64,000 nucleotides of DNA from Allosaccharopolyspora coralli (GTDB taxonomy: Bacteria > Actinomycetota > Actinomycetes > Mycobacteriales > Pseudonocardiaceae): contig NZ_CP045929.1 in assembly GCF_009664835.1 (NCBI RefSeq), positions 2,232,001 to 2,296,000 on the forward strand. Direction: 5' to 3'. Under the pieces are notes generated by a model that was not told where the DNA came from, did no database searches, and saw nothing but the letters and a program-made list of their open reading frames with translations. The first letter of the stretch is position 1. Each line of letters opens with the position of its first letter. Below, piece after piece: positions 32,909-43,143 of the stretch. The translations under genes were made by a program, and so were the position numbers.

Positions 32909-34117
32909 TCATCCGAACAGTGCCGCGATCCCGCTCAGCGAGTTCGCCCCCAGGTAGACGGTCAGCACCCACGCGAGCGCCCCGACGACGAGCAGCCCAG
33001 CAGGGTAGCGGTACCCGCCGAGCAGGTCGCGGCGTCGCCAGCCGACCCAGAGCAGCACGCCGAACCCGACCGGCAGGATCAGCCCGTTGAGGGCACCAGC
33101 CAACACCAGAAGCGTCGTCGGCGCCTCGTCGACCAGCAGGAACACCGTCGCCGACAGGCCGATGAACCCGACCACCAGCCAGTTCCGTGCGCGTTCCAGA
33201 GCAGGGGAGAAGGTCACCAGGAACGACACCGACGTGTAGGCCGCACCGATGACCGACGTGATGCCGGCCGCCCAGAGGATCAACCCGAACAGGCGCAACC
33301 CCACCTGACCCGCGGCGGCCTCGAACGCCGACGCCGTCGGGTTGTCTCCGGCCAGGCTCGCCCCGCCCGCCACGACACCGAGCACCGCGAGAAACAACAC
33401 CACCCGCATCACGCCGGTGACCAGCAACGAGGTGATCGCGCTGCGCCCGATCGCACCGACCTGGCCGGGCCCGCTCACTCCGGCGTCGACGAGCCGGTGC
33501 GCACCGGCGTAGGTGATGTAGCCGCCGACCGTACCCCCGACCAGCGTGGTGATGGCCAGGAAGCTGACCTGCTCCGGCAACACCGCCTGCCGCATCGCGT
33601 CCCCGACGGGGGGAGCGGAGACGACGGCGACGTAGACCGTGACGGCGATCATCAACACGCCGAGCGCGACCACGATGCGGTCCATCGCCACGCCGGCCCG
33701 CCTGCTCGCGAAGATGCCGACCGCGATCAGCGCCGAGACCAGCCCGCCGATCTTCACGTCGAGCCCCAGCAGCGCGTCGAGCCCCAGGGAGGTTCCCGCC
33801 ACGTTGCCGACGTTGAACACGAACCCGCCGAAGACGACCAACGCGGCCATGACGTACCCGAGACCGGGCAGCACCTTGTTTCCGAGGTCTTGGGCACGCA
33901 TCCCCGAGACACCCACGACTCGCCACACGTTGAGCTGCACCGCCGCGTCCACCAGCAGGGACACCACGATGGCGAACGCGAACGCGGCACCGAGCTGGAC
34001 GGTGAACTCGGTGGTCTGGGTGATGAATCCCGGCCCGACCGCGCTGGTCGCCATCAGGAACACCGCACCCAGCAGCGTGCCCCGGCGCACCGGCTTCGTC
34101 GTCGTCTCGTCGCTCAT
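32909..34117 (-). CDS. NRAMP-superfamily transporter (YcsG-like)
   Basis: A 402-residue inner-membrane protein with about 11 hydrophobic segments, starting near GTLLGAVFLMATSAVGPGFITQT (res 15-37), where TSAVGPGF replaces the metal-binding DPGN of true NRAMP metal transporters. The missing aspartate argues against divalent metal transport. Its coupling to pxpB/pxpC mirrors ycsG-kipI-kipA of Bacillus, so uptake of 5-oxoproline or a related acid is likely (inference). The ATG at 34117 is chosen over an upstream start that would cover the operator. Confidence 0.82.
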   Translation of the reverse strand: MSDETTTKPVRRGTLLGAVFLMATSAVGPGFITQTTEFTVQLGAAFAFAIVVSLLVDAAVQLNVWRVVGVSGMRAQDLGNKVLPGLGYVMAALVVFGGFVFNVGNVAGTSLGLDALLGLDVKIGGLVSALIAVGIFASRRAGVAMDRIVVALGVLMIAVTVYVAVVSAPPVGDAMRQAVLPEQVSFLAITTLVGGTVGGYITYAGAHRLVDAGVSGPGQVGAIGRSAITSLLVTGVMRVVLFLAVLGVVAGGASLAGDNPTASAFEAAAGQVGLRLFGLILWAAGITSVIGAAYTSVSFLVTFSPALERARNWLVVGFIGLSATVFLLVDEAPTTLLVLAGALNGLILPVGFGVLLWVGWRRRDLLGGYRYPAGLLVVGALAWVLTVYLGANSLSGIAALFG

Positions 34118-34166
34118 GATCCGCTCCGTTCGGCGGTCGCAGCTTCTCGGATCGCCGGACAGTATC

Positions 34167-34183
34167 GAATTGTTCAACAATTC
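34167..34183. promoter_or_regulatory. GntR-type operator for the pxp operon
   Basis: GAATTGTTCAACAATTC has perfect 7-bp arms with a 3-bp centre, in the divergent gap between the transporter and the second GntR gene. The centre is one base longer than in the three sites at 4-10 kb, so a different regulator probably reads it. Confidence 0.8.
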
Positions 34184-34249
34184 AGCAATAGCTTAGGATG
34201 AGGTTTCTCGCGCACGGACCACGTACGGCGATCACGGGAACGGGTGTCG

Positions 34250-34948
34250 ATGACGAGCGCAGCGCAGCCCTGGGTCGATTCGCTGGCGGCCGAGAAAGCC
34301 CTGCTCGACCGCACCAGCACCGCCGAACGCGTCGCCGACCTGCTGCGCAGGCACATCGTTGAGGGAACGCTGGCCCCCGGCACCCGGCTGTCCGAGGCGA
34401 GCGTGGGCCGTGCCCTGTCGGTCTCCCGCAACACCCTGCGCGAAGCGTTCCGCCTGCTGGCACACGAGCGACTGCTCGTCTACGCGTTCCACCGCGGCGT
34501 GTTCGTCCGCGAACTGACCGCGGACGACGTCGCGGACCTCTACCGAACCCGCCGCATGATCGAAACCGCGGCGCTGCGCACGGTGGCGGCAGCCACTCCC
34601 GCGGCGCTGCAAGCGGTCCACGATGCGGTTTCCGACGGCGAACGCGCTGCGGACGACGAACGCTGGCACGACGTCGGTACCGCGAACATGAGCTTCCACC
34701 AGGCTGTCGCGGACCTCGCGAGCAGCGAGCGATCGACCGAGATCATGCGGCGACTCCTGGCCGAACTTCGCCTGGCGTTCCACGCGATGCCCGCGCTTCG
34801 TGAGTTCCACGAGCCGTACCTCGCTGACAACCGGGCCATCGCCGACCTGCTCGCGGCAGGCGATGTGGAACAGGCCTCCCAGCGGCTCACCCGGTACTTC
34901 GACACCGCCGAAGGACAACTCCTCGACGCCTATCGCGACACGGAGTGA
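34250..34948 (+). CDS. GntR-family (FadR/FCD) regulator of the pxp operon
   Basis: A 232-residue FadR-type regulator. The winged HTH is at about 22-90 (VGRALSVSRNTLREAFRLL), followed by an FCD domain with SFHQAVADLASS carrying the metal-site histidine. It is divergent from the NRAMP-pxpB-pxpC operon across a palindromic operator, where Bacillus uses the IclR-type KipR. The ATG at 34250 is used; a GTG at 34244 is equally possible. The 3' end overlaps the convergent MFS gene by 19 bp. Confidence 0.88.
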   Translation: MTSAAQPWVDSLAAEKALLDRTSTAERVADLLRRHIVEGTLAPGTRLSEASVGRALSVSRNTLREAFRLLAHERLLVYAFHRGVFVRELTADDVADLYRTRRMIETAALRTVAAATPAALQAVHDAVSDGERAADDERWHDVGTANMSFHQAVADLASSERSTEIMRRLLAELRLAFHAMPALREFHEPYLADNRAIADLLAAGDVEQASQRLTRYFDTAEGQLLDAYRDTE

Positions 34949-36159
34949 GCCGCTTCGTCCGCGATGACACGTGAGGACACCCGGTGGGCCACGTGCCGCA
35001 GCAACGCCAGCCCACTGAGCACCGCCAGCAACCCGCACACCCCGAGCCAGCCCAGGTGGGCGTAGCAGCGCGCACCCGCCCACGACCCGAGAGCGCCGCC
35101 CAGATAAGCACAGGTCATGTACGCGGTGTTCATCCGGCTCCGCGACTCGGGCCGCACCGCGAAAATCCGCGCCACGTTGGCGACCATCCCGCTCTGCATC
35201 GTCACGTCGAGCAGCAATGTCCCCACCAACAGCGCGACCAGACCCGGCGCGCCCCCCACAGCGCCAACCGCGAGAATCGCCGCCGAGCCGAGCACGCCCA
35301 ACACGCAGACGAACGTGACTCGATCCGGACCTCGGCGATCCACCATCCTGCCCGCGACCGGTGCCGCGACCATCGTGGCTGCTCCGACCAGCGCCAACAG
35401 TCCGACGACGCGGGCGTCGAGACCATAGATCGGGCCGGTCACCACCAAGGCGATACCTGTCCACACCGCGGAGAAACCGCCGAAGACACTCGCCTGGTAG
35501 AAGCACGACCGCCGCAGCTCCGGCTCTTCCCGGAGTACGCGCAGGACGCCGACAAGCAGTGCCGGGTAGCGCTGTGTCGACGTCGGCCGCGTTCGCGGCA
35601 CCGTGACCATCAACGCGACCGCAACCAGAACCACCGCGGCAGCGGCCACAATGTACGGTGCGCGCCATCCCAGCCACTCGCCGACTGTCCCTCCGAACGC
35701 TCGGGACAGCAGCATTCCCCCGGTGGAGCCACTGAGCAGGATGCCGGTCACCTCGCCGCGCCGATCGTCGGCGACCAGACCGACCGTCATCGCGGCGATC
35801 AGCGGCGCGACGACCGTGGTGACGCCAACCAGCACACCGGCACCGAACAACGTTGACAGCCCGGGCGCCATGCCCGCGGCGACGAGCCCGCCGGCTGTGA
35901 GCATCAACAACGTGACGATCAGATTCCGGTTCGGCACCCGGTCGCCGAGCGGCACGAGCAGAAAGATTCCCGCCCCGTAGCCGAGCTGGACGGAAGTGAC
36001 CACCAGTGCCGCCGACGCGGGCGGCACACCCAAACCCGAACTGATCAGCGGACTGATCGCTTGCGGGAAGTACACGTTACCGACCGCGACACCACTGGCC
36101 ACGGCCAGCAACAGAAGGACGCCGCGTTCCAGACGCGGTCGTTCGGTCGGCACAGTCAT
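34930..36159 (-). CDS. MFS transporter (drug/sugar-type exporter)
   Basis: A 409-residue major facilitator with 12 predicted membrane helices. The MFS loop signature GDRVPNRNLI follows helix 2, and MVDRRGPDRV marks the second half. NVYFPQAISPLI in helix 1 and the VPRTRPTSTQ central loop fit the YgaY/NepI-like purine or drug exporter group, but the substrate is not clear. The ATG at 36159 (MTVPTERP) is favoured over a longer start. It is convergent with and overlaps the GntR gene. Confidence 0.85.
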   Translation of the reverse strand: MTVPTERPRLERGVLLLLAVASGVAVGNVYFPQAISPLISSGLGVPPASAALVVTSVQLGYGAGIFLLVPLGDRVPNRNLIVTLLMLTAGGLVAAGMAPGLSTLFGAGVLVGVTTVVAPLIAAMTVGLVADDRRGEVTGILLSGSTGGMLLSRAFGGTVGEWLGWRAPYIVAAAAVVLVAVALMVTVPRTRPTSTQRYPALLVGVLRVLREEPELRRSCFYQASVFGGFSAVWTGIALVVTGPIYGLDARVVGLLALVGAATMVAAPVAGRMVDRRGPDRVTFVCVLGVLGSAAILAVGAVGGAPGLVALLVGTLLLDVTMQSGMVANVARIFAVRPESRSRMNTAYMTCAYLGGALGSWAGARCYAHLGWLGVCGLLAVLSGLALLRHVAHRVSSRVIADEAAHSVSR

Positions 36160-37128
36160 CTCAGGAGCTCGCGCGGGGAGTGGTCGACGGCTACGGGGGT
36201 CACGGGGGGACAGCGTTGCGGAGCCGAGCACCGCTGCGCAATCGGTTTTGTACGCGGAAGGGGAGAAGTGTCCATTATGGACCGCTGCCGCCGCATTATC
36301 CGTTCGGCTGCGAGGGCGCCCCGCAGCCGAACGGACACCCGGACCGGCGTAGTCGCCTTTCCGTTTTGATGACCCGGCTCAGAGGAAGGGCTCTCTGGGT
36401 CACCTCTTTTGCGTCACTGTGACGGAAAAGCCCCTCAGGGGCCTTGGTTCGCGCGGATTCCGGTCGGTGGGGCAGAAGCGCGAGGCTCTGTCGGGAAGCG
36501 CGATCGTCCCGGCCTGTGCGAGCGAGCGCATCGGGGATGTTGCCACATTCGCCTCCCCAGGAACGGCACTGCCGGCAGGCGCTGAGTGTGCCTCCTGCCG
36601 AACGTCGGCTCCGCGGCGGCGCGATCTCGCCGGCAAGTCCCTGCCTCGCGACCCCTGATGCATGTCTTCTTTGCGTCACTGTGACGAATTCAAGGGAAGG
36701 GACGTGGCCCGCGCCGCAAGGAGGGGTGCGAGCTTCGTACGTGCGACCGCGCAGTCGGCGTGTGAGCCAGGCGCCCCCACCTTTTGCAGCCAGCGTCATG
36801 CCCCCGGAGGTCGAGGTTCTCGCCGCTTTGGCGACCGCGTTCGCGTCCTGGACTTGTCGTCGCCCGTGAAACCCTCGCAAGCCCGTCTGCCCAGACTATC
36901 AATAAGCCGATAATCTACATTATGTTAAGTAATTGACTCCGCCGATCCCCTTGCGACGATCATCGCGGTCGCCCCCGGAAGCTCACCGGGTGCCACAGCA
37001 CGGCCTGTGACGACCGTTCCGGTTACGACGGATGGCTCGGCTCACCGCCGTGGACATCCGTGAGTCGAGCCTTCCGTCGTCCTTCTCGCCGAGAATCGGC
37101 ACACCTCGCTCCCCCTCGCGGGAGCTGT
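36160..37128. other. 970-bp non-coding region with palindromes and an AT-rich patch
   Basis: No convincing gene is present. Seen here: a palindrome GTCCATTATGGAC (36270-36282) in the MFS promoter zone; a 14-bp stem TCCGTTCGGCTGCG/CGCAGCCGAACGGA (36299-36312, 36322-36335); two identical 13-bp palindromes CGTCACTGTGACG (36412-36424 and 36674-36686), each preceded by a T-rich run; and an AT-rich patch at about 36896-36940 that stands out against the GC-rich background. The region may be a decayed or mobile repeat. Confidence 0.6.
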
Positions 37129-38163
37129 TCAGGCGTTGTCCGGGACGAGGATCGCTCGGCCGCGCACTCGCCCGGCGTCGAGGTCCGCGAGAGCCTCGAG
37201 TGCCTTGCTCAGCGGATATTTCTTGGTGTGCAGGGTGACCTTGCCTGCTTCGGCGAGCACCATGAGCTCCACAAGGTCGTTGTAGGTACCAACCAGATTC
37301 CCGATGACGTTGCGCTCCGTGGAGATGATGTCGATGGTGGGGACGTCGATGTTGCTGCCGTAGCCGATGACGTAGTGCGAGCCGCCCTGCCGCGTCATCG
37401 CGAACGCGTCCTGCTGGGCTCCTTGTTCGGCGACGAAGTCGAGCACCACCTCGGCGCCGTTGCCGCCGGTGAGGTCGAGCACCGTTTGGACGTGGTCGCC
37501 GTCGGCGAGCACGGTGTGGTCGGCGCCGAGTTCGCCTGCCAACTCCAGTGCCTCGGCACTCCGGTCCACGACGACGCTCGTGGTGGCGCTCATCGCGGCG
37601 AGGGTCTGGATGCCGATGTGGCCGAGCCCGCCCGCTCCGTTGACCACGCAGACCGTGCCGGGAGGCAGCTGTGGCGCGGCCTTACGTACGGCGTGATACG
37701 CGGTGATTCCGGCGTCCGCCAGCGCGGCGACGTCGTCGGGTCGAGTGCCGGGGTCGAGTTTGATGCACGCGCGGGCCGAGGTCAGCAGGTACTCGGCCAT
37801 CCCCCCGTCCGAGTCGATACCGGGGAACCGCCGGTCGGCGCAGTGCATGTCGTCGCCGGCGCGGCAGGCGTGGCAGAGCTCGCAGGTGGGCGTGGGGTGG
37901 AGGATCACCGTGTCGCCGACGGCGACGTTGGTGACCGCGGAGCCGACCTCGTGGACCCAGCCCGCGTTCTCGTGGCCGATGGTGTACGGCAGTTGCACGC
38001 CGGACTTCTCGGCCCACTGTTCCTCGATCACGTGCAGATCGGTGCGGCAGACCCCAGCGCCGCCGATCTTGACGACCACGTCCAGCGGGCCGGAAACCGT
38101 GGGCTGTTCGACTTCCTCGATGACGGGTTGCTCATGGTAGTTGTGCAGCCGCACGGCTTTCAT
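37129..38163 (-). CDS. Zinc-dependent alcohol dehydrogenase (propane-operon type)
   Basis: A 344-residue medium-chain zinc alcohol dehydrogenase. Catalytic zinc ligands are C39 and H64 (GHENAG), the structural zinc cysteines are C94, C97, C100 and C108, and the NAD site is NGAGGLGHIGIQ. It is the last gene of a three-gene operon, with AGGAGG inside the 3-bp gap to the DUF59 gene. The same trio follows propane monooxygenase genes in Rhodococcus and Mycobacterium, where the enzyme oxidises a secondary alcohol. No monooxygenase subunit is present here. Confidence 0.88.
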   Translation of the reverse strand: MKAVRLHNYHEQPVIEEVEQPTVSGPLDVVVKIGGAGVCRTDLHVIEEQWAEKSGVQLPYTIGHENAGWVHEVGSAVTNVAVGDTVILHPTPTCELCHACRAGDDMHCADRRFPGIDSDGGMAEYLLTSARACIKLDPGTRPDDVAALADAGITAYHAVRKAAPQLPPGTVCVVNGAGGLGHIGIQTLAAMSATTSVVVDRSAEALELAGELGADHTVLADGDHVQTVLDLTGGNGAEVVLDFVAEQGAQQDAFAMTRQGGSHYVIGYGSNIDVPTIDIISTERNVIGNLVGTYNDLVELMVLAEAGKVTLHTKKYPLSKALEALADLDAGRVRGRAILVPDNA

Positions 38164-38166
38164 CGG

Positions 38167-38880
38167 TTATTCCTCCTGAGGGGTCTGGGGATACCGCGCC
38201 TGGAGCATGCCGCGGCACATCCCCGCGTTCGCTTCTTGCCCTGTCCTGGTCAGGCGGGCACGCGCCAGATACATCTTGGAGTGGTCGGCGCCGACGGCGG
38301 CGCCGGATTCGGGATCGACCAGCAGTGGAGTGTCGTCGTCGCACGGCAGGTCGAGTTCTCGCCTGCGTTCCCGCAATCGTTCCTTGTCCGTGCCTTCCGG
38401 GGCGTCGCCGAGCCGGTGCTCGACCAGCCGTTGCGGATCGGCCCCTGCCGACACCATCGCGCGGCAGACCCGGTCCGTGCCAGCCAGTACGGCTTTGCGC
38501 AGGAAGTTCGCCCGCAGCTCGTCGAGCTCGTCGGTGGCCTCGCCGGTGAAGCTGGCGGCGAAACCCGACCGCTGCGCTACCCCGCGGTTGATCGCCTCGG
38601 CCGAGAAGTGATCCTCCAACCGGACGTCGACGCGCCGCACGCCGGGCACCGCGGCCACGGCGTCGTGGGCGTCGGCGACCATCAGGAACGCGAAGTTGGG
38701 GGCGCAGAAGTACGTCGGCAGTCTCAGCCGCACGGTCGCCTCGCCGTCCGGGCTCACCGAACATCGCGAGACGAACCCGAGGTCGGTCAACGGTTCGGCC
38801 AGTTCGGGATCCTGAACCGTGCCCAGTGCGGACCGGGCCGCCGCGGTGATGTCGGCGGCCCGGTCGAGCGAGACCGTCAT
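38167..38880 (-). CDS. DUF59/metal-sulfur cluster assembly factor-like protein
   Basis: A 237-residue protein with an N-terminal DUF59/MIP18-like domain (about 10-85): SALGTVQDPELAEPLTDLGF, then the LPTYFCAPNFAFLM Cys-containing motif. The C-terminal half (RKAVLAGTDRVCRAMVSAG onward) is specific to the group encoded with propane/phenol-type diiron monooxygenases, where it is thought to help metallocentre assembly. The ATG overlaps the amidohydrolase stop by 4 bp (ATGA). Role here unknown, as the monooxygenase is missing. Confidence 0.82.
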   Translation of the reverse strand: MTVSLDRAADITAAARSALGTVQDPELAEPLTDLGFVSRCSVSPDGEATVRLRLPTYFCAPNFAFLMVADAHDAVAAVPGVRRVDVRLEDHFSAEAINRGVAQRSGFAASFTGEATDELDELRANFLRKAVLAGTDRVCRAMVSAGADPQRLVEHRLGDAPEGTDKERLRERRRELDLPCDDDTPLLVDPESGAAVGADHSKMYLARARLTRTGQEANAGMCRGMLQARYPQTPQEE

Positions 38881-39917
38881 GTCTGCTCCACGAGCACCGC
38901 GTCGTCCTGACTGGCTGCCTCTTCCTTGAGGCGGCAGTCCTGCGGCACGTCGATGTCGTAGAGCTTGGCGGCGTTGAGCCCGAGGATCTTCTTCTTGCCC
39001 TCGGTGCCGAGCCGTGGGTAGTCGGAGAAGGTCTCGTCCGGGTAGTCCCAGTCGACCAGTCCCTCGATCTGCCACTTCGGCTCCCAGATCGCGTAATCCG
39101 AACCGAAGGTCATCTTGTCCTCGCCGACCCAGTACAGCAACTCGCCCATGACCTTGGAGAAGAACCTCGGCCTGCTGTACATCTCGGCGCCGGTAACCAC
39201 CGACAACCCGGCGTAGACGTTGGGCTCCTGGGTCGCCATGTAGCAGAAGTCCTCGATGCGCGGCAGGCCGACATGCTCGACGATGAAGTTCAGTCCCTGG
39301 AACCGTGTGGCCGCGTGGTCCACGTCGGCGACGTCGAAGGCGTCCTTGTCCAACGGCCAGATCGTGGGTCCTTTGTGGACGTGGACGTTGGTGACGCCGA
39401 GTTCCTCGCACTTTTCCAGGTAGCGCCACGCCATCGGGTCCTTGAGCGTCCAGCCGCGGGAGCCGTCCCGCCACTCCGCGGTGTAGAGCTTCACGCCCTT
39501 GCTGCCGTAGCGTTTCACCCGCTCTTCGAACGGGCGGAGCCCTTCTGCGCCGTCCCGAGGGTCGAAGTTGGTGTTCAGGATGAACTTGTCCGGGTACTTC
39601 TCTTTCAGCTCTGCGTTCTGTTCGGTGGTGTTGAAACCGTTGGTGTACCAGTACTTGAGGTCGGTCGGCTGGAAGATCGCGACGTCGACGTGTCCGTCCT
39701 CGAACACGTCGCGCATGAGGTCGGCTTCCGTGTATTCCTGGAACTTCTCGATCGACCAGTGCGTCTCCGGCGGGCCGAGGCTCTGATAGGCGTGGAAACA
39801 CTCGATCCAGCCCTTGGCCAAGTCCTCCCGCCCGGGGACCCTGTTGGCGGGACCGGCGTTCCAGAAGTGCATGTGGCTGTCGACGACGAAGTACTTCTCG
39901 CCCGCTTTCTCGTACAC
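38877..39917 (-). CDS. Amidohydrolase-family protein (propane-operon type)
   Basis: A 346-residue TIM-barrel amidohydrolase-2 protein. Metal ligands H15 and H17 lie in VVDSHMHFW, a central His in VHVHKGP and the distal Asp in TFGSDYAIWEP. Its N terminus MYEKAGEKYFVVDSHMHF matches the amidohydrolase encoded within propane and phenol-type monooxygenase operons; its reaction there is not settled. GGAGG precedes the GTG at 39917. It is the first gene of the trio. The 244-bp gap upstream (39918-40161) holds no gene. Confidence 0.86.
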   Translation of the reverse strand: MYEKAGEKYFVVDSHMHFWNAGPANRVPGREDLAKGWIECFHAYQSLGPPETHWSIEKFQEYTEADLMRDVFEDGHVDVAIFQPTDLKYWYTNGFNTTEQNAELKEKYPDKFILNTNFDPRDGAEGLRPFEERVKRYGSKGVKLYTAEWRDGSRGWTLKDPMAWRYLEKCEELGVTNVHVHKGPTIWPLDKDAFDVADVDHAATRFQGLNFIVEHVGLPRIEDFCYMATQEPNVYAGLSVVTGAEMYSRPRFFSKVMGELLYWVGEDKMTFGSDYAIWEPKWQIEGLVDWDYPDETFSDYPRLGTEGKKKILGLNAAKLYDIDVPQDCRLKEEAASQDDAVLVEQT

Positions 39918-40161
39918 GAGGACCTCCTCGGTCGGCTCGGGTGCGGACCGTCAATGATCCCTCGATGTGACCGTGTACGCAGGTCGAAGAAGGGCGAAGG
40001 TGGTCACCGACGGGCGGCGTCGAACGTGAGTCGCTCGAGGGTCTCCTCACCGCGTGTGCGGCCACGCTCACTGAGCCAGCACGGAACGTGTCCGGACGCT
40101 GTACGAGATCGGACGGGACGTGCTTGCCGCGAAGTCGATGCCCGGTGCGTGTCGGACACGG

Positions 40162-40923
40162 CTACCCGGCGTGGCCGACGACGACAGCGGTGTCCTCGTC
40201 GGTGAACACGTGTGCCGTCAGACCGTGCCGCTCGAAAACGCGGGCGGTCGTCGACGACTGGTCGATGCTCGACTCGACCAGCACACGAGCTCCCGGGGCC
40301 AGCCATCGTCGGGCTCGGGCGGCCAGCCGGCGCTGCACGTCGAGGCCGTCGGTTCCACCGTCGAGCGCGAGACCGGGTTCGTGCTCCCGAGCCTCCGGTG
40401 GCATGTGTGCGATCTCCGCCGTCGGCACGTACGGCGTGTTCGCGACCAGGACGTCGACCCGGCCTCGCAGTGTGCTGGGCAGAGCATCGTCGAGGTCTCC
40501 CCGGTGCACACTCCCCTTCTGGCCGAGATTCGTGCGAGCACAACGGACGGCCGCAGGATCGAGGTCGGCAGCGTGGATCTCGATACCCGGGACCTCGGCG
40601 ACGAGCGCGGCCGCGACGGCTCCGCACCCGCAGCAGAGGTCGACGGCGACGTTGCCCGCGACCAGGCCGTCGGCGGCACGATCGACGAGGAACTCGGTGC
40701 GACGACGCGGAACGAACACCCCGGGCGCGACCACGAGGCGCAGCCCGCGGAACTCCGCCCACCCCAGCACGTGCTCCAACGGCTCCCCCGCCAGTCGCCG
40801 CGTCATCATCGACTGGACCTCGCCCGCTGTCCGAGCCGTGGACAGGATCAGCGCTGCCTCGTCCTCGGCGAAAACGCAGCCTGCCGCGCGCAACCGACTC
40901 GTGAGTTCCGCAGTATCGCGCAT
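40162..40923 (-). CDS. HemK/PrmC-family N5-glutamine methyltransferase-like protein
   Basis: A 253-residue class I SAM methyltransferase of the HemK group. The SAM site is VAVDLCCGCGAVAAAL; the substrate motif normally NPPY reads ANTPYVP, as in a second actinobacterial paralogue group. GVFVPRRRTEFLV matches the conserved PRxxTE region. It might modify a protein glutamine other than release factors. GAAAGGATTCC precedes the ATG. Monocistronic on the minus strand. Confidence 0.82.
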   Translation of the reverse strand: MRDTAELTSRLRAAGCVFAEDEAALILSTARTAGEVQSMMTRRLAGEPLEHVLGWAEFRGLRLVVAPGVFVPRRRTEFLVDRAADGLVAGNVAVDLCCGCGAVAAALVAEVPGIEIHAADLDPAAVRCARTNLGQKGSVHRGDLDDALPSTLRGRVDVLVANTPYVPTAEIAHMPPEAREHEPGLALDGGTDGLDVQRRLAARARRWLAPGARVLVESSIDQSSTTARVFERHGLTAHVFTDEDTAVVVGHAG

Positions 40924-41002
40924 GGAATCCTTTCGGAGTCCTGGACGAGACTGCCTCAGCGCTCACCACACCCTGCTGATCCGGTGGTGAGGCAGTCGAC
41001 GT

Positions 41003-41509
41003 GTGGTGAAGGATGTGCTGGTGCAGGAGACGTGGAGTACCGAGGTCGTGCCGGTTCAAGGGTCGCAGGCGGCCGAGCTGTTGTGGGAGTACCTCGACGA
41101 GATGGTCAGCCGCTACCACGGCCGCGCTGCGACGGACGCCGAGATCCGGCACGAAGTCGAGGAAACGTCGAGTGAGTCGCTGGAACCGCCGCGTGGGGCC
41201 TTGCTGGTCGCCAGTTTCCAGGGTCAACTGGCCGGGTGTGTCGGTGTGCGCCTCATCGACGACGACGTCGCGGAGATGAAGCGGGTGTACCTGCGTGAAC
41301 GGCTACGCGGACGCGGCGGCGGTGCTGTGCTGGCCGAAGCCGCCGAACGGATCGCCCGCACGTGGGGAGCGCGCGTGATGCGCCTGGACACCCGGTCGGA
41401 TCTGATCGAGGCCCGGGCGTTGTACGTGCGGCTCGGGTACGAAGAGATCCCCGCGTACTCGCGGAGTCCGTATGCCGAGCACTGGTTCGAGAAGTCCTTG
41501 GTCGCATGA
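41003..41509 (+). CDS. GNAT-family acetyltransferase
   Basis: A 168-residue GNAT protein. The acetyl-CoA motif A is VYLRERLRGRGGGAVLAEAAE, here with R/G-X-X-G-X-G/A form, and the C-terminal RLGYEEIPAY strand is typical. The acceptor is unknown. A GTG start is used at 41003; other in-frame GTG codons follow closely. A methyltransferase gene lies 19 bp downstream and may be co-transcribed. Confidence 0.82.
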   Translation: MVKDVLVQETWSTEVVPVQGSQAAELLWEYLDEMVSRYHGRAATDAEIRHEVEETSSESLEPPRGALLVASFQGQLAGCVGVRLIDDDVAEMKRVYLRERLRGRGGGAVLAEAAERIARTWGARVMRLDTRSDLIEARALYVRLGYEEIPAYSRSPYAEHWFEKSLVA

Positions 41510-41528
41510 TCGTGGTGGAGTGGGTGTG

Positions 41529-42203
41529 ATGGACAAGCAACAGTGGACGGCCGTCGAGGACTATTTCGTCTCGACGGTCGTGGGTAGGGACGAGGCGCTC
41601 GACGCGGCGGCGGCGGACGCGCAACGGGCGGGGATGCCCGCGATCGCCGTCCCGCCCAATCACGGCAAGTTCCTGCAGCTGTTGGCGTTGATGCAGGGTG
41701 CCCAACGGATCCTCGAGGTCGGCACGCTCGGGGGGCTCAGCGCCATCTGGATGGCGCGCGCACTGCCGGACAACGGCCGGTTGGTGACCTTGGAGTACAA
41801 CGAGGCGTACGCCGACGTCGCGCGCACCAGCATCGCGCGCGCCGGTCTCGCGGACCGTATCGAGGTGCGGGTGGGTGCGGCGTTGGAGACGCTGCCGGTG
41901 CTCGCTCGGGAGGGCGCTGGGCCGTTCGACCTCGCGTTCCTCGACGCGGACAAGGAGAACAACCCGGCCTATTTCGAGTGGGCACTGGAGATGGCGCGGC
42001 CGGGATCGGTCATCGTGGTCGACAATGTCGTGCGCGGCGGTCGCGTGTTGGAGGCCGACTCCGACGATGCGATGGTGCAGGGCGTCCGGCGTCTGCACAC
42101 GATGGTGGCCGCCGAGCCGCGGGTGCGGGCGACGTCGCTGCAGACCGTCGACAGCAAGGAGTACGACGGCTTCCTGATGGCCTACGTTGACAAGAGCGCG
42201 TGA
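41529..42203 (+). CDS. Class I O-methyltransferase (family 3, catechol-type)
   Basis: A 224-residue SAM-dependent O-methyltransferase. The SAM motif is ILEVGTLGGLSAIWMA and the metal/catechol acid region FDLAFLDADKENN. The group methylates catechols, caffeoyl-type or polyketide hydroxyls with a divalent metal. The ATG at 41529 has GGAG upstream. Its stop codon TGA is supplied by the palindromic terminator at 42197-42242. Confidence 0.87.
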   Translation: MDKQQWTAVEDYFVSTVVGRDEALDAAAADAQRAGMPAIAVPPNHGKFLQLLALMQGAQRILEVGTLGGLSAIWMARALPDNGRLVTLEYNEAYADVARTSIARAGLADRIEVRVGAALETLPVLAREGAGPFDLAFLDADKENNPAYFEWALEMARPGSVIVVDNVVRGGRVLEADSDDAMVQGVRRLHTMVAAEPRVRATSLQTVDSKEYDGFLMAYVDKSA

Positions 42204-42242
42204 GTCTTTTTGGTGGCTATAGCAACCAAAAAGACTCACGCG
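42197..42242. terminator. 46-bp palindromic bidirectional terminator, copy A
   Basis: A near-perfect palindrome of 23-bp arms with one G/A mismatch. The arms begin CGCGTGAGTCTTTTTGGT, so the hairpin supplies T-tracts in both directions. The stop codons of both convergent genes (TGA at 42201-42203 and its mirror at 42236-42238) lie inside it. Related copies are at 50270 and 60072. Confidence 0.9.
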
Positions 42243-42943
42243 ATCTTTGTGGCGGCGGCGACGAGGGTCGCGTTGTCGGGGGCGATGTCACCGTCGGGTA
42301 GTTGCAGGACGTCTTCGAGGCCGATCCGGGTGTCGAGTCCGCGCTGGGCCGCGAGTGCGAGTACCGGCCATGCTCCGGCGGACTCCCCGTGCAGCAGGAT
42401 CGGTGCCGTGACGTGCCGGAGGCGTTGCAGGAGGGCCTCGGCGGTGGTGGGTGCCCCTCGCGCGGTGCGGTCGGTGACTTCGGCGAGCACGCGCTGGACC
42501 CTGTCGCGCACGGGTGATCGGGTGAAGCGCTCGTCGCCGTCGGTGCCGGACCAGATGCCCGCCTCGACGGCGATTCCTCGGTCGAGCAGTGTGGCGGCGA
42601 CGTCGTCGGCGCCGGGTTCGTGCCAGTTCACCGAGGCGTGATCCGGGAGCACGGTCCAGGCGCTGATCGCCGCGATCCGGTGCTGCGGCTCGGTGAGGGT
42701 CCACGCTCCGGTGGTGACGCCGACCGCGACGCCGGGAACCGCCGCGCGGACGGCGCGGACGGTGGGGCCGACGACGCGTGCGTCGAGGCTGTCGGCCCCG
42801 TCGGGTGTCTTCGGGTGCAGGTGAATGTCCTGGGCTCCCGCTTCGACGGCGGCAGCGGCGGCCGCGGCGAGCTCTTCGGGACGGACCGGCAGGTGGAAGT
42901 GTTCGCGGGGACTTCGAGCGCCGTTGAGGCAGGCCTGCAACAT
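42236..42943 (-). CDS. BKACE (DUF849) beta-keto acid cleavage enzyme
   Basis: A 235-residue BKACE-family protein. These enzymes cleave a beta-keto acid with acetyl-CoA, as 3-keto-5-aminohexanoate cleavage enzyme does. The opening MLQACLNGARSPREH and the zinc-binding HLHPKTPDG (H41, H43) are clear. It is shorter than the roughly 280-310-residue typical members, like other actinobacterial DUF849 proteins. The ATG at 42943 is favoured on family alignment; 42979 is an in-frame alternative. Substrate unknown. Confidence 0.82.
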   Translation of the reverse strand: MLQACLNGARSPREHFHLPVRPEELAAAAAAAVEAGAQDIHLHPKTPDGADSLDARVVGPTVRAVRAAVPGVAVGVTTGAWTLTEPQHRIAAISAWTVLPDHASVNWHEPGADDVAATLLDRGIAVEAGIWSGTDGDERFTRSPVRDRVQRVLAEVTDRTARGAPTTAEALLQRLRHVTAPILLHGESAGAWPVLALAAQRGLDTRIGLEDVLQLPDGDIAPDNATLVAAATKIA

Positions 42944-43143
42944 GAGGTGATTCTGCTCGATCCGTGCGCCGCAATCCATGCCGAGGCACTCGTTCGTGTT
43001 GACCTTGACTGCGGAACGTGATCAGAACGGCTCGCTGAGAGGGCGCGCGGATTGAGGCTGTGGTCAGCGACATCGCGCCGATGGTTGGTTCGCTACGGAA
43101 CCGTCCACGCAGATCAATCCGCGCACCGTCGTAGCCTGATGGG

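Follow-up and report, generated by a model that had tools for sequence, protein, structure and literature searches.

The window examined here, a stretch of 64,000 nucleotides of the Allosaccharopolyspora coralli genome, contains a three-gene cluster that we regard, with moderate confidence and on sequence comparison, as a functional, self-contained operon derived from the tail of a mim/prm operon, the kind that encodes a group 5 soluble di-iron monooxygenase (SDIMO), mimABCD and groEL being gone. This lineage is supported for the genes encoding a zinc-dependent alcohol dehydrogenase (ADH) and a MIP18/DUF59-family protein, and is uncertain for the gene encoding an amidohydrolase. The trio fills positions 37129–39917 with minus-strand genes running right to left (Table 1); the amidohydrolase stop and DUF59 start overlap by 4 nt (ATGA), and 3 nt lie between the DUF59 stop and the ADH start. 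The DUF59 start was set at 38880; the open reading frame list runs this frame from an earlier GTG. The open frames, Pfam matches, overlap, and gap bear out the preliminary description of a tightly coupled amidohydrolase-DUF59-ADH set in the accessory order of mim/prm operons. NCBIfam contained no model matching the amidohydrolase at E 0.001, and DUF59 and ADH scored far under the curated cutoffs of the models listed.

Table 1. Positions of the trio and its immediate flanks, in window coordinates
Feature	Coordinates	Strand	Remarks
Stretch without convincing gene, downstream	36232..37128		Site of groEL in relatives; no groEL remnant; contains 17-nt repeat pair
Zinc-dependent medium-chain ADH	37129..38163	(-)	344 aa; Pfam ADH_N 1.7e-26 and ADH_zinc_N 4.9e-21
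MIP18/DUF59-family protein	38167..38880	(-)	237 aa; Pfam FeS_assembly_P (DUF59) 7.4e-12
Amidohydrolase PF04909	38877..39917	(-)	346 aa; Pfam Amidohydro_2 E 1.2e-47
Upstream intergenic region, putative promoter/leader	39918..40161		mim operons have mimD upstream of the amidohydrolase; no mimABCD remnant here
PrmC-like methyltransferase	40162-40923		Upstream of amidohydrolase

In soil actinobacteria, genes of these three kinds usually come after those of a propane/acetone-oxidizing enzyme. The same order of amidohydrolase, DUF59 or unknown protein, and ADH is found in the mim operon of Mycobacterium smegmatis and the prm operon of Gordonia sp. TY-5 (PMC5445863, PMC6849523, in the portions available). 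The M. smegmatis genes MSMEG_1970–1979 are given there as a regulator ("sigma factor"), mimA–D, amidohydrolase, conserved hypothetical, ADH, groL, and ABM (PMC5445863); by comparison with the mim/prm operons, the window is without mimABCD, GroEL, regulator, and ABM gene. The trio of Mycobacterium sp. AT1 is described as likewise lying apart from the monooxygenase; however, that strain keeps the monooxygenase and its GroEL at another site, whereas the present assembly has no such monooxygenase (PMC6849523, in the portion available). Among 123 tabulated entries (chosen loci, the window included, with an amidohydrolase match of >250 residues; shorter pieces such as L112, L114, and L115 were left out), 47 combine the amidohydrolase-DUF59-ADH order with nearby mim genes, indicating that the arrangement is not due to chance; counted among these 47 is L044_13023, a second trio with a mim operon close by. 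The amidohydrolase adjoins DUF59 in 121 of the 123 entries, the other two stopping at a contig end, and in 11 Actinoplanes/Paractinoplanes loci the interval from DUF59 to groEL contained no ADH by tblastn; the amidohydrolase-DUF59 pair is therefore the core of the set.

The A. coralli assembly is a single contig of 4.83 Mb, 99.76% complete, and contains no match to the hydroxylase subunits (PF02332) or the coupling protein (PF02406). Relatives were taken as the positive control for both families because 14 standard control genomes were without a match for either: 19 of the 60 searched genomes, a set that includes A. coralli, exceeded the PF02332 cutoff, and all six chosen mim genomes were positive for PF02406. 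These two null results rule out a soluble di-iron monooxygenase elsewhere in the assembled genome, and the earlier suggestion that the set serves a monooxygenase encoded elsewhere fails for the soluble di-iron type, given the absence of PF02332 genome-wide. A monooxygenase on a plasmid missing from the assembly is possible. No dedicated GroEL (MimG) adjoins the trio by tblastn. Two GroELs, about 1.8 and 2.0 Mb from the trio, are 47 and 50% identical to the MimG of L036, an identity that is indecisive alone, as some mim-operon GroELs also reach only about 50%. The best genomic match to a MimR-type regulator is 32% identical over residues 30–223, versus 48–51% over nearly the full length in five of five mim genomes.

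The immediate surroundings are similarly devoid of operon genes. Querying 34000–42500 by tblastn with mimA–D, GroEL, ALDH, and regulator of L036 recovered no credible remnant; the best match was a 41-residue piece of mimB at E 0.011, and the reductase MimB had no credible match. This agrees with the preliminary observation that no hydroxylase, reductase, coupling subunit, or GroEL is near. No regulator adjoins the trio, and a search of 36160–40170 for sigma-70-type promoters found none, a result of little weight in such an organism. Beyond the ADH lies a gene-poor stretch of about 0.9–1.0 kb, followed by an MFS transporter. Within it, identical 17-nt repeats (TTTGCGTCACTGTGACG) occur at 36408–36424 and 36670–36686, their starts 262 bp apart; the 16-nt core of the repeat occurs three times in the window, twice exactly and once as an overlapping match with 2 mismatches, versus 0.04 expected, and the pair may represent a small element of mobile or regulatory nature. 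An AT-rich patch at 36880–36960 (GC 0.47, with surroundings of about 0.66–0.70) also lies between the ADH and MFS genes. A gene of the beta-keto acid cleavage enzyme family (BKACE; 42236–42979) is found a few genes upstream of the trio.

Comparison with intact operons points to a mim/prm operon, since stripped of mimABCD and groEL, as the probable ancestor of the trio. In L036 (genome G003), the genes run regulator, ALDH, groEL, ADH, DUF59, amidohydrolase, mimD, mimC, mimB, mimA. Alignment of six mim operons to the window by blastn gave 74–76% DNA similarity over about 2.8 kb, essentially the three genes; the point where the match opens varies from 15 bases within the amidohydrolase gene to 27 bases upstream of its start, and the match closes 13–19 bases short of the ADH end, with two further short matches for L040 in the MFS region. 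In the part of the gene trees around the window, its ADH falls in a 7-row clade (of 92 rows; support 100/99) and its DUF59 in a 16-row clade (support 100/99), and all other members of both clades have mim genes beside them. Identity of the window ADH to the ADHs found in complete mim operons reaches 85%. Both the accessory order and common descent with the group 5 SDIMO operon were thus recovered for ADH and DUF59.

Monooxygenase-free trios occur in other genomes as well. Among 297 family genomes, sampled evenly from a larger group and searched at E 1e-60 for the amidohydrolase and E 1e-10 for PF02332, 158 contain the amidohydrolase, 121 PF02332, and 115 both; 43 contain the amidohydrolase without PF02332, and 6 the reverse. 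The locus was inspected for DUF59 and ADH in 15 of these 43, all of which contain the whole trio; the window is one more, and the remaining 27 are counted on the amidohydrolase alone. Where the best listed amidohydrolase match is at least 63% identical, 81 of 84 genomes contain PF02332, the three others being A. coralli and the fragmented G258 and G281; of the other 74 amidohydrolase-positive genomes, 34 contain PF02332. The window copy is therefore an exception within its own branch, and the sole well-assembled one in the ≥63% group, some members of which carry a second trio apart from their monooxygenase. The preliminary description had held that many such trios without any monooxygenase would mark an independent pathway. 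They are indeed frequent (43 of 158 amidohydrolase-positive genomes, with full trios in 15 of 15), but 40 of the 43 have weaker amidohydrolase matches (54–58% identity in the 15 of them listed with position), and most independent trios sit in this lower-identity group.

Standalone trios beside an IclR regulator (e.g., L146, L152, L156) comprise the same three families with no monooxygenase nearby, and the source genomes of L146 and L152, like that of the window, are without PF02332. They differ from the window in having the ADH first and a regulator present, and their ADH and DUF59 are 67–68% and 53–54% identical to those of the window. Of 37 comparison loci, 18 have the IclR-family regulator cluster and 10 a MetE-like protein, each identified from a single typed member; in a separate clade, a GAF/Fis-type regulator (one typed) stands beside 7 of 8 loci, the eighth ending at the locus edge, and an ABM protein occurs in 5 of the 8. 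All of these counts are minima, as a simple gene caller was used. Set against the MSMEG_1970–1979 gene list, the GAF/Fis clade looks like an M. smegmatis-like operon minus mimABCD and groL. The second histidine of the amidohydrolase H-x-H motif is alanine in 7 of 122 rows (L041, L042, L044, L045, L046, L047, and L154), all beside GAF/Fis-type regulators. Other arrangements were also observed: Kribbella capetownensis (L060:14426–18900) has, beside a complete mim operon, a second trio that includes a GroEL of its own, and since the locus stops just upstream of the amidohydrolase of this second trio, a second monooxygenase there is possible; in L089, L105, and L106 the amidohydrolase-DUF59 pair is divergent from mimABCD rather than downstream, with an ADH also present in L105 and L106.

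The trio itself is well preserved. None of its frames contains a stop codon, and at columns conserved in at least 97% of all rows the window deviates at 1 of 101 (amidohydrolase), 1 of 40 (DUF59), and 1 of 120 (ADH), so that 258 of 261 are kept. In a closer set, it deviates at 5 of 145, 1 of 42, and 2 of 130 conserved columns, respectively. The amidohydrolase ranks second of 97 rows for deviations at clade-conserved columns and carries 23 changes unique to it at columns where 14 mim relatives do not vary (next row, 4), compared with 7 for DUF59 (next row, 5) and 8 for ADH (maximum among 6 relatives, 14). This excess may reflect altered constraint or another origin, and part of it may be due to the outside position of the amidohydrolase in its tree; we take the protein to be an enzyme that is maintained and possibly re-tuned. 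The preliminary proposal of a remnant of a lost operon is supported as to descent for ADH and DUF59, given their trees, and unsupported as to decay.

A true remnant, left by a recent deletion of mimABCD and groEL and still intact only for want of time to decay, is the strongest of the alternatives, though an unlikely one. The mim genes adjoining all of the closest ADH and DUF59 relatives, the near-constant presence of PF02332 in the ≥63% group, the lack of a local regulator, and the unusual changes in the amidohydrolase are all consistent with it. The retention of conserved columns, the open frames, the missing trace of any flanking operon gene, and the common occurrence of monooxygenase-free trios in other genomes argue against it. 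The state seen is probably that of a mim operon tail persisting alone, like the trios of other genomes.

Under a somewhat less likely alternative, the trio or its parts came by transfer as a monooxygenase-free unit, and the genome never had mimABCD. Such units are available in many genomes, and the history of the amidohydrolase conflicts with those of ADH and DUF59. In its gene tree (119 rows, four having been left out; quick method), the window sequence sits on a long branch, with Dormiibacter, Actinoplanes, and Kribbella rows nearby and no starred support; its end branch is 0.46, against a median of 0.067. The most identical rows (79% or less) belong to ADH-first trios of Candidatus Dormiibacter with no mim genes in their loci. 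Forcing the sequence into a clade with 15 mim rows, in a test of 40 rows, gave a p-AU of 0.0508, which neither rejects nor supports that grouping. The flanks are also compatible with an insertion: among 60 genomes, with A. coralli counted in both figures and its genus represented by this one genome, the PrmC-like gene is present in 48 and the O-methyltransferase in 17, and in relatives the two adjoin neither each other nor the trio. However, in its amidohydrolase-DUF59-ADH order and in the trees of ADH and DUF59 the window agrees with mim operons, not with ADH-first standalone trios, and trio GC3 (0.85–0.91) equals that of surrounding genes (mean 0.854 over 52 window genes), which rules out a foreign composition; total GC of the amidohydrolase is 0.624 versus a gene mean of 0.696. 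We infer that mimABCD and groEL were lost, as opposed to the trio having arrived by itself. In G032, the mim operon (L044) looks mosaic, its ADH, DUF59, and amidohydrolase being 84, 52, and 56% identical to those of the window, and its amidohydrolase falls into a distant clade of the amidohydrolase tree.

ADH residues C39, H64, E65, C94, C97, C100, and C108, conserved in at least 95% of 92 rows, place the protein among the zinc MDR enzymes; we take the first three to be catalytic and the other four to be structural zinc ligands. The window ADH departs from conserved columns at G95E and T192S only, and its relatives in the PDB include the R. ruber secondary ADH. The DUF59 protein has the family profile, the DPE motif, and the conserved cysteine (C59 and C222 are both conserved), with one conserved Asp of the motif region replaced by Ala (D28A); its model (pLDDT 93.1) comprises an N-terminal MIP18 domain and a helical C-terminal part, of which the MIP18 domain was matched weakly by Foldseek (best E 2.7e-3, none at 0.001).

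Assignment of the amidohydrolase to PF04909 (amidohydrolase_2) follows from its profile and its D-x-H-x-H, H, H, D residues; the candidate active-site residues D13, H15, H17, H179, H181, E214, H215, and D274 are all present. Its AlphaFold2 model (pLDDT 88.2) is a TIM barrel of PF04909 type and best matches the uncharacterized 3irs (Z 25.5), followed by COG3618 enzymes (about 22) and dihydroxybenzoate decarboxylases (about 21–22); ACMSD and AibH/ARO chains lie level with one another at about 18–20 (AibH and related, 18.5–19.5), below that best match. This likeness is at the level of a common fold, which indicates no reaction. No sequence relatives were found in the PDB at E 0.001 by sequence alone or at 0.01 with a profile (best 0.021, profile search with E up to 10). 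The amidohydrolase-related dinuclear oxygenases (AROs) AibH2 and SfbO share the PF04909 fold, the D-x-H start, and His/Glu/Asp candidates (PMC10811679, PMC10401708, PMC7782822, in the portions available). The ARO ligands are described as D, H, H, E, D, and H, including a D-x-x-H motif (D337/H340 in AibH2; PMC10401708, in part). Compared by motif and spacing rather than by residue alignment, the window protein has I277, not His, at Asp+3, a position at which 118 of 122 rows have Ile and the other 4 Leu; with D-x-x-H missing, an AibH2-type oxygenase reading was rejected. Unlike in AROs, no Rieske protein is found among the typed genes flanking the trio. On a loose reading, again without alignment, D13, H15, a His, E214, and D274 resemble the five AibH1 ligands, with different spacing (ligands from the available part of PMC7782822).

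On 2-HIBA, A. chiangmaiensis DSM 45062 is reported to devote 3.2% of its proteome to the amidohydrolase and 6.1% to Adh1, an abundance that, for the amidohydrolase, speaks for a metabolic enzyme; the pathway proposed there for the Mim cluster leads from acetone to acetol and methylglyoxal, with Adh1 as the second step (PMC7176365, in the portion available). With an SDIMO of another group, a heterologous host required the flanking genes for ADH, ALDH, and GroEL in order to grow, which fits, by analogy, accessory roles for SDIMO neighbor genes; the available portion of that source does not name an amidohydrolase (PMC11057499). A DUF59-type gene is labeled only "iron-sulfur cluster assembly protein" in the available part of PMC9213486, and in the portions of the literature covered neither the amidohydrolase gene nor the DUF59 gene of propane/acetone monooxygenase operons has a tested function.

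The trio is most likely an independent secondary-alcohol/ketone module, for which we infer substrate, reaction, and partner role as follows. The zinc ADH would use NAD+ to oxidize a small secondary alcohol or a hydroxyketone; the amidohydrolase, a metal-dependent enzyme of that fold, would convert the ketone so formed, or an acid derived from it, by hydrolysis, hydration, or decarboxylation; and the DUF59 protein, as its invariable companion, would probably help to load its metal or to stabilize it. It is improbable, though conceivable, that the amidohydrolase-DUF59 pair is an uncharacterized metalloenzyme with its own maturation factor, perhaps iron-dependent like the PF04909 oxygenases, that forms a complete pathway with the ADH, the soluble di-iron monooxygenase having been added to that pathway later rather than served by it. 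That the trio serves another, non-PF02332 oxygenase of the same genome, such as a P450 or flavin monooxygenase, is very improbable: the genome-wide oxygenase search covered PF02332 and PF02406 only, which leaves room for one, but none of the six typed flanking genes (between 34244 and 42979) is of P450 or flavin kind.

The trio of A. coralli thus represents known families in an unusual state, a test bed and not a new kind of system. The existence of intact trios in genomes lacking the monooxygenase, a separate regulator accompanying many of them, suggests that the amidohydrolase and DUF59 proteins need not be monooxygenase maturation factors, and the monooxygenase-free genomes that carry them would be clean hosts for finding the amidohydrolase/DUF59 reaction.
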